Assembly (NCBI RefSeq): GCF_001565895.1
Contig: NZ_LSNE01000007.1
Coordinates: 382,845-446,844 of the forward strand
Length of the DNA: 64,000 nucleotides
DNA from: Paraglaciecola hydrolytica
GTDB lineage: Bacteria > Pseudomonadota > Gammaproteobacteria > Enterobacterales > Alteromonadaceae
Direction of reading: 5' to 3'
Part shown: positions 58,593 to 62,743 of the stretch, one piece after another
How the letters are laid out: the number at the start of each line of letters is the position of its first letter
How positions within the stretch are numbered: the stretch's first letter is position 1
The notes under the pieces: model-generated
The model's input: only the letters and a program-made list of their open reading frames with translations
Databases searched by the model: none
Told to the model about the DNA's origin: nothing
Program-made: the position numbers and the translations under genes

Positions 58593-61505
58593 ATGTCATT
58601 AGCAAATTTTTCACTTTCACAACTTGAGCAATCCCAAGATTTTATTCGCCGTCATATTGGCCCTGGCGAGTCTGAAATAGCATCGATGTTGGCCGCCATT
58701 GGCGCCACTTCGCTAGATGATTTGGTGCAGCAAACTGTGCCAGAAAACATCCGCTCTAAATCAGCATTAAAAGTGGGCGAAGCGCAAACTGAAGTACAAG
58801 CCTTAAGTTATTTAAAAAGTGTTGCTAAAAAAAATAAGCTGAATAAATCTTACATTGGTATGGGTTATTACGACACCCTAACCCCCAATGTGATTTTGCG
58901 TAATGTACTCGAAAATCCCGGCTGGTATACCGCTTATACCCCTTATCAACCTGAAATTGCCCAAGGTCGCCTTGAAGCCTTACTTAACTTTCAGCAAGTC
59001 ACCATCGATTTAACCGGAATGGAATTGGCGTCAGCCTCTTTGTTAGATGAGGCCACCGCAGCAGCCGAAGCCATGGGCTTAGCTAAACGTATGTCAAAAA
59101 ACAGCAAAGCCAATGCGTTTTTTATAGCAGACGATGTGCACCCACAAACCTTAGACGTAGTGACGACTCGTGCTGACATGTTTGGTTTTGATATTATTGT
59201 AGGCAAAGCCCAAGACGCTGCCAGCCACAATATCTTTGGTGCCCTGTTACAATATCCGGGCACTAGCGGTGTGATCACTGATTTAACTGACATCATTGCT
59301 GCCATTCAAGCCAACAAAGGCATAGTGGCGGTTGCTGCCGACTTACTTAGCTTAATGTTACTTAAATCCCCAGGCGAAATGGGGGCCGATGTGGTCTTAG
59401 GTTCAGCTCAACGTTTTGGTGTGCCTATGGGCTATGGTGGTCCTCATGCAGCCTTTTTTGCTACTCGTGATGATTACAAACGTTCATTGCCTGGCCGTAT
59501 TATTGGGGTGTCTAAAGATACTCGTGGTCGTCCAGCTTTGCGCATGGCCTTACAAACCCGTGAGCAACATATTCGCCGCGAAAAAGCCAACTCCAACATA
59601 TGTACCGCGCAAGTACTTTTAGCCAATATGGCGTCGTTTTATGCGGTATATCATGGCCCACAAGGCCTAAAGACTATCGCGTCGCGGGTACACCGCTTTG
59701 CTGACATCTTAGCCGCTGGTTTACAAAAAGCGGGTTTTGAACTGGTCAACAACACCTGGTTTGATACTTTAAGCATCAAAGTGGGTAAAAACAAAGCTGG
59801 CATAGTTGAACAAGCCTTAGCGGCCGGAATCAATCTACGTAGTGATGTTGAAGGGGTTTTAGGTCTGAGCCTTGACGAAACCACCACCCGAGCTGATCTG
59901 CAAACCTTATTCAGTGTGTTTACGGGTGCCAATGTTGAGCTCGATATTAATGCCTTTGATAGCGCAATTGTAAAAAATGGTAGCCAGTCTATTCCGGCAG
60001 CTTTAGTGCGTGAATCAAAAGTATTAACTCACCCTGTATTTAATAGCTATCAGTCAGAAACTGAAATGCTACGTTATATTAAATCTTTAGAAGACAAAGA
60101 CTTAGCCTTAAATCATTCGATGATATCCTTGGGCTCGTGCACCATGAAACTCAACGCTACCGCTGAGATGATCCCCGTCACTTGGCCAGAATTTGGCAAA
60201 TTGCATCCTTTTGCGCCTATCGAGCAAGCGCAAGGTTACAAACAAATGATGGACGAGCTAAGTGAGTGGCTTATTGATATTACCGGCTACGATGCTCTGT
60301 CGATGCAGCCTAACTCAGGCGCTCAGGGTGAATACGCCGGTTTGATCACCATTCAAAAATATCATCAAAGCCGTGATCAGGGTCACCGCAATGTATGTTT
60401 GATCCCAAGCTCTGCCCACGGTACTAACCCGGCAACGGCCCAAATGGTCAGTTACAAAGTGGTAGTCGTTAATTGTGATAAAAACGGCAACATCGATGTA
60501 GCAGATTTACGTAAAAAAGCCGCAGAAGTCGCTGATAATTTAGCTTGTGCCATGATCACTTATCCTTCGACTCATGGAGTATACGAAGAAACCATCAAAG
60601 AAATTTGTGACATCGTGCATGAGTTTGGTGGCCAAGTGTATATCGATGGCGCCAACATGAACGCCCAAGTCGGTTTAACTTCACCCGGTTTAATCGGTGG
60701 TGATGTATCCCACTTAAATCTACACAAAACCTTTTGTATTCCGCACGGCGGCGGCGGCCCAGGTATGGGGCCAATCGGCGTAAAATCACACTTAGCGCCA
60801 TTTTTACCTAACCACAAAGTGATTGGTGTTGAAAACGTAGGTGATGGTTCTGTCAGAACAAACGGGGCAGTATCGGCAGCACCATGGGGCAGTGCCTCTA
60901 TCCTACCCATCAGCTATATGTACATCAAAATGATGGGCAGCGAAGGCCTTAAAAAAGCCACAGCAGTAGCTATTTTAAATGCCAACTACGTAGCCAAACA
61001 ACTCAGCGCCCATTATCCTGTATTGTACCGTGGCCGTAACGAACGTGTTGCTCACGAATGTATTATCGATTTACGTCCACTAAAAGAGTCATCTGGCGTA
61101 AGCGAAATGGACGTGGCTAAGCGCCTAAATGACTACGGTTTTCACGCGCCAACCATGAGTTTTCCGGTTGCGGGTACCTTGATGATCGAACCCACTGAAT
61201 CAGAATCAAAAGCTGAACTAGACCGTTTCATCGAAGCCATGCTCAGCATCCATGCTGAAATCGTTAAAGTCGAATCAGGCGAGTGGGATGCCATCGATAA
61301 CCCACTACACAACGCACCCCATACGCTGGCTGATATTTGTGATAGTAATTGGACTCGCAGTTACGATCGCCAACTTGCTGCTTACCCAGTAGCCGCTGTT
61401 GCCCGTAACAAGTTTTGGCCATCGGTAAACCGTATTGATGATGTATGGGGGGATCGTAACTTAAATTGTGCTTGCCCGTCGATAGACACCTATCGCGAAG
61501 AATAA
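58593..61505 (+). CDS. gcvP: Glycine dehydrogenase (decarboxylating), P protein
   Basis: PLP enzyme that decarboxylates glycine and loads the aminomethyl group on the H protein. 970 residues (E. coli 957), the fused single-chain type with N- and C-terminal halves. [14 protein letters not shown] near 19, [20 protein letters not shown] near 116, [20 protein letters not shown] near 490, [12 protein letters not shown], and the PLP Lys in [21 protein letters not shown] near 711. Last gene of the operon and the last core gene before the accessory region. Confidence 0.97.
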
Positions 61506-61612
61506 TTTTTTTGTCGTATTCCAATTAAGTATGTGACTTTATTTCGGTAGTTTGTGAGTGCAATAAAGTCTGTGAATGGTATTTGTTAGCAGTAAACAAA
61601 ATGAGAAAGCTC

Positions 61613-61680
61613 ATGATCACAACAGATCTAGTTTAAAACTGAACAGATCTAGTTTGGGTCTGCAAATCAAGTTGGAAACT
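61613..61680 (+). repeat. Three-unit ~20-nt repeat block, copy 1
   Basis: Units AACAGATCTAGTTTAAAACT (61621), AACAGATCTAGTTTGGGTCT (61642) and CAAATCAAGTTGGAAACT (61663) follow each other at 20-21 nt. The whole 68-nt block aligns without gaps to 62636-62703 at about 49 of 68 positions. Possible transposase-binding array. Confidence 0.75.
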
Positions 61681-61685
61681 AATAG

Positions 61686-61717
61686 TAGAAGGTGATCGAA
61701 AGGTCACCTTCTATATT
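61686..61717 (+). terminator. Hairpin after repeat block 1
   Basis: TAGAAGGTGA pairs exactly with TCACCTTCTA around TCGAAAGG. A short AT/T-rich tail (TATTTT) follows. Confidence 0.7.
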
Positions 61718-61824
61718 TTCAGAATAGACAATGACTTAAGCTATAAGCCTTCCGTTAGTTGGCTTCTGGTTAATAATTGTGCTAGTTTTGTCATATGTTA
61801 TATTTCGATTCTAAGGTTGCAGAT

Positions 61825-61875
61825 ATGCAAAAAGTTAAAAATTCATTCAACGGTACAGATGAATTGGAAATTTAA
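61825..61875 (+). CDS. Micro-ORF, 16 codons (MQKVKNSF...GTDELEI)
   Basis: ATG with AAGG 8 nt upstream opens a 16-residue peptide ending GTDELEI. A hairpin terminator at 61911 closes the unit. The C-terminus resembles that of the micro-ORF at 63640. Whether it is translated is unknown; it could also be a gene remnant. Confidence 0.3.
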   Translation: MQKVKNSFNGTDELEI

Positions 61876-61910
61876 ATACGACTCTATTTATTCAAGTGCG
61901 TGATATACGT

Positions 61911-61936
61911 AAAGGTGAGCTAAGGCTCACTTTTTT
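61911..61936 (+). terminator. Terminator in the accessory region
   Basis: GTGAGC pairs with GCTCAC around TAAG and is followed by six T residues; the stem can extend into the flanking A/T runs. Confidence 0.88.
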
Positions 61937-62193
61937 GTTTTTATAAGGTTGTCATTATTATTGAATGTTGTTAACTTAAGGGTAAGCTTTATCACAGGCG
62001 GACATGTCTGATAATAGTATTAACGCGTCAAACTTGTAACAAAGAAGCGCGGGGCTGGCAGCCTCTTCTATTAGGTACAAACCATTAGGTTGTATGGTGA
62101 TAATTAATTGGGAGTAATTCGTCACGAATACTCGGCTCGCAGACAGAAAGCCCTTATCTGGTATGCGACATCAATTTTTTATTGGATATCACT

Positions 62194-62589
62194 ATGCCTG
62201 TCAAAAACGCAAACCGCAGTACTCCCGCTTTTCAACACTATAAAAACGTATCTTTTGAAACTCTAGCCGCTAGTTGGTTCACGTATGATGGTTGGGAGGT
62301 TTTCCTTCCTGTGATTGATCATGACATGAAAACTGACCTATTAGTCGGAGACGGAACGTCCTTCTACAGAATACAAATCAAAACATTTGAATCTAATGAT
62401 GAGTCCACCTATGTCGAGAATAAGTGGGGCGACGCTCAAATTGACTTTGTTATTTGCTTCTCTCGAACAGCTAACTGGGGCTACATCTTAAAACCGTTTA
62501 CTCAAGCGAGAAAACGACTAAATGCTGCTGATAATATCAAATTCCATCAACATCCAAAACCGTTTATGAAGGCCTTTAACAGAATTTAG
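62194..62589 (+). CDS. PD-(D/E)XK nuclease-like protein
   Basis: A 131-residue soluble protein resembling the PDDEXK_5 group (group I intron-type endonuclease fold). Candidate active-site residues: Glu in SFETLAASWF near 20, Asp in MKTDLLVGDG near 43, and Gln-x-Lys in YRIQIKTFE near 57 (QxK instead of ExK). A later segment, IDFVICFSRTANWGYILKP, is typical for these folds. Start at 62194 rather than the TTG 12 nt earlier. It is flanked by repeat blocks, so probably mobile-element cargo. Nuclease activity is inference. Confidence 0.65.
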   Translation: MPVKNANRSTPAFQHYKNVSFETLAASWFTYDGWEVFLPVIDHDMKTDLLVGDGTSFYRIQIKTFESNDESTYVENKWGDAQIDFVICFSRTANWGYILKPFTQARKRLNAADNIKFHQHPKPFMKAFNRI

Positions 62590-62633
62590 ACTCGGTAAAT
62601 TTATTTGAAGGTTATTTTATTAATATTGTGCGA

Positions 62634-62703
62634 TGTTGATTACGACAATTGTAGTTGGAAACCGATCCAATCTAGTTGGAAACTGCAATTGAAGTTGAAA
62701 ACT
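62634..62703 (+). repeat. Three-unit repeat block, copy 2, with TGTTGAT start
   Basis: Begins TGTTGATTACGACAATTG. Units GACAATTGTAGTTGGAAACC (62644), TCCAATCTAGTTGGAAACT (62666) and GCAATTGAAGTTGAAAACT (62685) follow at about 20-21 nt. TAGTTGGAAACTGCAA resembles, from memory, the TnsB-binding repeats in the Tn7 right end. Candidate transposon terminus. Confidence 0.65.
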
Positions 62704-62716
62704 TATCCATAACTAT

Positions 62717-62743
62717 AAGGCGAGCTAATTTAGCTCGCTTTTT
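62717..62743 (+). terminator. Terminator after repeat block 2
   Basis: GCGAGCT pairs with AGCTCGC around AATTT, preceded by AAG and followed by five T residues. Confidence 0.9.

Follow-up and report, generated by a model that had tools for sequence, protein, structure and literature searches.

Repeat blocks behind gcvP in Paraglaciecola hydrolytica as very probable right ends of Tn7-like transposons

The locus behind gcvP in Paraglaciecola hydrolytica raises the question of why two similar blocks of short direct repeats, each followed by a hairpin, stand one after the other in the same orientation. The window analysed here, that is, the whole stretch of 64,000 nt, is part of contig C7 in an assembly of 5.2 Mb and 20 contigs. 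The preliminary description took the blocks at 61613-61680 and 62636-62703 to be homologous, and indeed they were identical at 49 of 68 positions in an ungapped alignment, with no other place on either strand of the window reaching 38 of 68 identities to either block. Each block contained three units, as had been described, but their spacing, given as 20-21 nt, was actually 21 and then 19 nt from core to core in both. The cores, counted from the first base of AGTT, were located at 61630, 61651 and 61670 in block 1 and at 62653, 62674 and 62693 in block 2. Block 1 was decayed, with the unit sequences AGTTTAAAACT, AGTTTGGGTCT and AGTTGGAAACT, and block 2 (AGTTGGAAACC, AGTTGGAAACT and AGTTGAAAACT) was nearer to the consensus. 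The conserved part started sharply at TGAT in both, with the terminus TGATCACAAC in block 1 (61614-61680, plus strand) and TGATTACGAC in block 2 (62637-62703, plus strand). The hairpins reported behind the blocks were found as terminator-like structures with T-rich tails at 61686-61713 (detected on the minus strand) and 62717-62741 (plus strand), and an additional terminator-like hairpin was present at 61911-61934 (plus strand). A pattern of the terminus plus one unit, allowing up to two mismatches, occurred at only three places in the genome, which were the two blocks on C7 and one site on contig C17. A DNA search of the genome with block 1 returned the block itself and 12 places at E-values of 0.6-7, corresponding to chance level.

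The genes upstream of the repeats were assigned to gcvT, gcvH and gcvP by NCBIfam, and gcvP (58593-61505, plus strand; E 0) was the single match in this genome. A third array, unmentioned in the preliminary description, was detected between the gcvP stop codon and block 1 at 61512-61576 (plus strand). It had the terminus TGTCGTATTCC and three units in the same orientation as the blocks (cores at 61527, 61548 and 61566, spaced by 21 and 18 nt), and its sequence differed from those of the blocks, which are designated type A, and showed 86.5% identity over 52 nt with a displaced array of the type designated C in the relative G171. The order from gcvP outward was TTTTT (61507-61511), the type-C array, block 1, its terminator, a structured RNA with a nuclease gene, block 2, its terminator and small open frames, so that three presumed right ends stood in a row, of types C, A and A. 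Past the window, C7 continued with a Lamassu system, represented by genes for LmuB, LmuC and a TIR-like effector (PADLOC; L009:3292-6419).

A two-unit pattern matched 28 of 295 genomes of the family including this one, among which 13 other genomes possessed a type-A array; the remaining matches were arrays of other types. The 13 type-A arrays shared the layout of an outer sequence like TGATCACGAC, units and a terminator, with two units in G068 and G203, and 10 of them were located directly behind the gcvP stop codon. The terminus lay 8-13 nt past the stop codon in nine of these 10 relatives, the exception being G060 with about 25 nt, and two more genomes (G127 and L159) showed distances of 9 and 11 nt. 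The three arrays that were not placed beside gcvP were those of G216, 51 kb downstream on the gcvP contig, G068 and G203, the last of which was absent among the gcvP matches listed. The genes in approximately 4 kb downstream of the type-A arrays differed between nearly all genomes. A strict pattern of the type-A terminus plus one unit was found only in the own genome among 248 genomes drawn from the class, indicating that type A is narrow. In Amphritea atlantica (L277), outside the genus of the window, a type-A array behind gcvP was followed by a repeat of the terminus and one unit.

Type A was one of several kinds of array at this position. We compiled 107 distinct gcvP flanks, which were partly selected, and assigned the type letters in the present analysis. 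The 38 arrays found in them had the same layout, with unit spacings of about 20 and then 18-20 nt, and different unit sequences, namely AGTTGGAAAC (A), AGTTTGAAAC (B), AGTTTGTGA (C), AGTTCCCCG (D), AGTTTGCAAC (F), GTAAATAAG (G) and AAGTTGGTTA (H). A further unit, AGGTTTGGGAA, occurred behind gcvP in L260 and outside the left end of an element in G044, and the type-I unit AAAAATAGAC occurred as a remnant. At least eight end-sequence types use the gcvP site. When only flanks not selected for arrays were considered, 15 of 69 (from 70 loci, 69 of which were long enough; the own genome counted) had a three-unit array. Random segments of 120 nt reached the array score in 8 of 5000 cases, and real ends may be among these, as the pool included the fetched elements. 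Within the genus, an array was present at three of 19 testable loci, including that of the own genome. As a positive control, the two-unit pattern detected an array behind glmS (assigned by NCBIfam), the classical Tn7 site, in G005, with the first unit about 40 nt past the stop codon. Single-unit remnants were seen by eye behind gcvP in L222, L218, L187, L185, L194 and L022, which look as if recombination between repeats had removed two of the three units.

Units found behind gcvP also recurred in the opposite orientation further downstream. In G121, G050, G150 and G090, inverted type-A units were present 3 to 24 kb downstream at a wide spacing of 54-69 nt. The scanning of gcvP regions of 20 relatives with eight unit sequences revealed an inverted partner array of the same type with wider spacing (40-69 nt) in 10 of them, which were of type A in G121, G050, G150, G090 and G127, type B in G044, G032 and G171, type H in G146, and type D in G002. 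The other 10 regions (G097, G154, G290, G085, G041, G020, G130, G007, G021 and G013), several of which spanned only 20 kb, yielded no left end that matched in type. The ends of Tn7 show the same asymmetry of close-spaced and wide-spaced units. The 10 elements delimited in this way were 3.4 to 37.5 kb in size, and nine of them were flanked by an exact 5-bp target duplication; that of G050 was mismatched (CATAT/ATATT). The blocks do not represent conserved, vertically inherited intergenic DNA, since the array is sporadic, relatives have other arrays or none at this position, and the elements are bordered by 5-bp duplications.

Another right-end array lay directly outside the left end in five of the 10 elements, in the same orientation, being of type C in G150, G090 and G146, type G in G002, and the AGGTTTGGGAA type in G044. 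In G171, a type-C right end was found about 100 nt past the left end. These same-orientation right ends outside left ends suggested that new elements enter beside gcvP and displace older ones outward. In addition, a terminator outside the left ends of G121, G050, G127, G032 and G171 resembled the gcvP terminator of uninterrupted relatives. The insertion point therefore seems to lie between gcvP and its terminator, with the element carrying a terminator of its own. In G044 (L035), a single type-C-like unit followed by a terminator of its own was observed just inside the type-B right end of an element whose duplication was intact, which recalls the type-A blocks beside the type-C end in the window.

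The presence of a terminator next to the arrays was general, as it was detected within 75 nt of 36 of the 38 arrays and in only 9 of 38 segments further downstream. The adjacency would also suit a small RNA in the gcvP 3'-UTR, composed of short AGTT-GGA-AACT hairpins and a terminator and conserved by descent. The cores are palindromic as this explanation would have it, and the folds of block plus terminator were far better than those of shuffled sequences (z of -6.4 and -5.6), the terminator giving much of the effect. However, this position is occupied in relatives by different arrays or by no array, the arrays have inverted partners with target duplications, block 2 sits 1.1 kb from gcvP, and three of the 13 type-A arrays elsewhere are away from gcvP, making a small RNA highly improbable as the identity of the blocks. 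An Rfam scan of the region gave nothing near a gathering score, and accordingly no known sRNA. Type III toxin-antitoxin repeats, CsrB-like GGA hairpins and operator sites were also considered from the sequence and were dropped in view of the inverted left ends and duplications; integron attC sites were a further candidate.

Genes for transposition accompanied the arrays. In G121, tnsA (PF08722, 9.7e-13), tnsB, tnsC, a gene for a TniQ protein and a gene for a 533-aa TnsD (PF15978) were present 3 kb inside the right end, with tnsC split over two overlapping open frames. Homologs of TnsB were found in 58 of the 295 family genomes. In at least ten of these (G121, G127, G146, G171, G130, G044, G032, G041, G002 and G216), tnsB followed gcvP on a single contig at a distance of 4 to 40 kb, and among the other hits were genes far from gcvP or on different contigs. 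Likewise, at least ten genomes had tnsA, tnsB and tnsC together on the gcvP contig, downstream of that gene, and genes for TniQ/TnsD were found wherever the stretch was fetched. Among the delimited elements, seven of 10 carried tnsA-tnsB-tnsC; the elements of G150, G090 and G050 had proper ends with no match to the tns queries, indicating that non-autonomous elements exist. The non-autonomous carriers span L070, L072 and L069 with their neighbours; the G150 element contained IS3-family transposase frames, and that of G090 looked metabolic by eye.

The phylogenetic tree of TnsB, consisting of 31 rows, had a branch with support 100/99 that separated ten gcvP-linked sequences from ten sequences not linked to gcvP, where not linked means that TnsB was distant from gcvP or located on a different contig, with a single-contig genome in only one of nine cases (G026). 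The TnsB of the own genome fell on the gcvP side. The remaining 11 rows were unlabelled, six of them on the gcvP side; the row glmS_E_G010 was named for glmS, its placement at glmS being putative. The interrupted tnsB of G216 was omitted, G002 contributed two rows, and the row of G171 was a shortened frame.

Taken together, the two blocks are very probably right, gcvP-proximal ends of Tn7-like transposons, that is, arrays of TnsB sites whose attachment site is the 3' end of gcvP; we place the probability of this identification at roughly 0.93. It agrees with the inverted arrays of approximately 20-nt units at both ends of 10 elements in the 20 regions, the genes for TnsA, TnsB and TnsC (on C17 in the own genome, and lacking in three of the 10 delimited elements), the selectors with PF15978 and PF06527, the 5-bp duplication, and the insertion in one orientation and at a nearly constant distance from a conserved gene. 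The suggestion of the preliminary description that the arrays are transposase-binding ends of the Tn7 type was thus supported by the inverted partners, duplications and tns genes, and its expectation of further blocks beside variable gene sets with Tns genes adjacent was realised in the 13 other genomes and in the tnsA-B-C-tniQ-tnsD sets of gcvP-site elements. By analogy with TnsD at glmS, TnsD would read the end of gcvP and direct insertion by TnsABC into the gap that separates gcvP from its own terminator, about 8-13 bp beyond the stop codon and with the right end leading. Each block would provide three close-set TnsB-binding sites behind a terminus starting with TGAT, with a terminator just inside. 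A later element could use the same intact site, by which older ends would be displaced away from gcvP and deteriorate, and right ends would come to stand in a row, all oriented alike. The type-C end beside gcvP is followed in the window by two type-A ends.

A candidate partner of the type-C right end was present elsewhere in the genome. Contig C17 (22.9 kb) carries tnsA-tnsB-tnsC-tniQ-tnsD, with matches to TnsA (PF08722), an AAA-type TnsC, TniQ (PF06527) and TnsD (PF15978); its TnsB matched that of Tn7 (7pik) at 2.5e-36, and TnsD matched Tn7 TnsD (8glu) at 1.1e-10. Three PADLOC matches to defence genes were also obtained on C17 (L124:12150-15807), corresponding to a retron type II-A reverse transcriptase, its partner gene and a metallo-beta-lactamase-like gene. 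The contig has a type-C left end, in which three inverted units are spaced by 54-55 nt, with TTTTT behind it; past this lie a type-I array remnant with a terminator and then the lone type-A unit, also with a terminator. The end type, the TTTTT shared as a candidate duplication and the single gcvP match in the genome suggest that C17 continues C7. Pairing of the right end at 61512 with the left end on C17 would place both blocks inside the type-C element, a position not expected from simple stacking.

With the blocks still being Tn7-like right ends, the arrangement might be a single composite transposon of type C, mobile as a whole by its type-C ends and with older type-A ends engulfed in it, instead of a stack of separate elements; we consider the chance of this slightly below even. 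The TTTTT outside both the right end in the window and the left end on C17, the single genomic occurrence of the type-C left-end pattern, and the parallel in G044 fit such a composite. On the other hand, TTTTT is of low complexity and hence weak as a duplication, C7 and C17 are separate contigs, and a stack that had lost its left ends would give an identical picture. No convincing unit of a type-A left end was found between the blocks, in the rest of C7 or on C17, so that neither block is part of a demonstrably whole element.

The DNA between the blocks contained, as had been described, a PD-(D/E)XK-like gene, which encodes 131 aa (62194-62589, plus strand) and matched Pfam PDDEXK_5 at an E-value of 1.1e-4, below the cut-off. 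Homologs were found in 25 of 394 genomes of the order, including cargo of gcvP islands in G050 (79% identical), G002 (twice) and G290, and a scan for viral relatives of the nuclease gave none. The approximately 210 nt preceding its start were conserved across genera, and the DNA past the stop was not, except in near copies. The gene with these 210 nt is a sharply limited unit found in several islands, and one may ask whether the blocks are the paired ends or recombination sites of a cassette of about 1 kb, as the preliminary description had also proposed. The two arrays are oriented alike, both being right ends, with no convincing type-A left end between them; the homologous units of G050, G002 and G290 were not accompanied by a two-unit array of any of the eight types used in the scan; and the unit ends at the nuclease stop codon, 47 nt before block 2. 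A cassette bounded by the blocks is accordingly very hard to reconcile with the data and is as improbable as the small RNA.

The conserved segment before the nuclease gene (61981-62193, plus strand), abutting its start codon, corresponds to a structured, covarying RNA. A structure drawn by eye from 15 sequences had 55 pairs in 11 helices, formed in 91.1% of the cells when compared with 35-41% in slid controls, a comparison that leans toward the structure as it was derived from the same sequences. Among the 55 pairs, 29 were changed on both sides, when shuffles gave 13.0 +- 2.2 and none of 500 was as high; the first automatic consensus, from 23 sequences, had 21 pairs, 17 of them changed on both sides. 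The model R1, built from the 15 sequences, scored the window copy (L278), one of its own rows, at 212.9 bits. It matched seven of eight left-out divergent homologs at 44-88 bits, missing L288, in a test that was not blind as these homologs were visible in an earlier alignment during the choice of helices, and none of seven more distant ones (L295-L301). With strict filters, 12 matches were obtained in 11 of the 394 order genomes, each directly adjoining a nuclease homolog, whose start was overlapped by six bases in one case. The RNA homologs noted were L278-L294, L302 and L139. No family of Rfam 15 matched over the RNA.

This evidence supports an RNA of approximately 210 nt and its coupling to the nuclease gene. 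In HEARO, a structured RNA likewise lies directly upstream of a nuclease ORF, with sharp unit limits. The enclosed gene resembles HEARO/IscB in this layout and differs in its 131-aa PD-(D/E)XK protein and in the lack of an Rfam match over the RNA; with PDDEXK_5 as the sole Pfam hit, it does not belong to the combination of HEARO RNA and HNH nuclease. It is conceivable, though we regard it as rather unlikely, that the two form an undescribed self-contained module, in which the 11-helix RNA acts as the partner (guide, scaffold or trigger) of the nuclease, making an independent counterpart of IscB/HEARO that spreads as cargo of Tn7-like elements at the gcvP site. Instead of acting on or with the protein, the RNA may be a plain regulatory leader.

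The elements at gcvP were compared with known systems. The unit sequences of Tn7 differ from those found here. Elements of the Tn5053/Tn402 group carry TniA, TniB, TniQ and a resolvase, and both they and Tn552 are not known to carry TnsA and differ in site choice from the present elements. These two groups, also put forward in the preliminary description, fitted less well, as the machinery here has TnsA and TnsD, which places it outside Tn5053/Tn402; the likeness lies in end repeats of about 20 bp (excerpts of PMC8649781). The elements agree with Tn7 in TnsA-B-C and TnsD (PF15978), close-spaced right and wide-spaced left arrays, the 5-bp duplication and the right end beside the attachment gene. 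They differ in attachment gene (gcvP instead of glmS), in having both TniQ and TnsD, and in three right-end units, where excerpts of PMC8649781 report four. With Tn7-like elements at other attachment genes (tRNA, parE and comM), they share a dedicated target selector, defence cargo and boundary arrays, according to excerpts of PMC8649781, PMC10293859 and PMC11406308. Multiple ends from adjacent insertions are mentioned in the excerpts of PMC8649781, so stacking as such is already known. No word beginning with gcv occurred in the main texts of these three papers, and the wording 'glycine cleavage' in the excerpts of PMC8649781 concerns merA. The Tn7-like element is thus of a known kind, and gcvP as its attachment site was not met in the literature searched, which was covered by title and, for the three papers, in the main text.

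The present results name gcvP as a chromosomal attachment gene that serves a clade of Tn7-like elements of marine gammaproteobacteria. With at least eight end types, the site lends itself to studying how TnsB and its sites change under a constant target of the selector, and how elements accumulate at one place. It is also a place to seek anti-phage genes, as exemplified by the Lamassu genes in the island of the window and the retron genes on C17. The terminator inside nearly every right end suggests how the elements spare the host operon, and the RNA-nuclease pair would be a separate lead.
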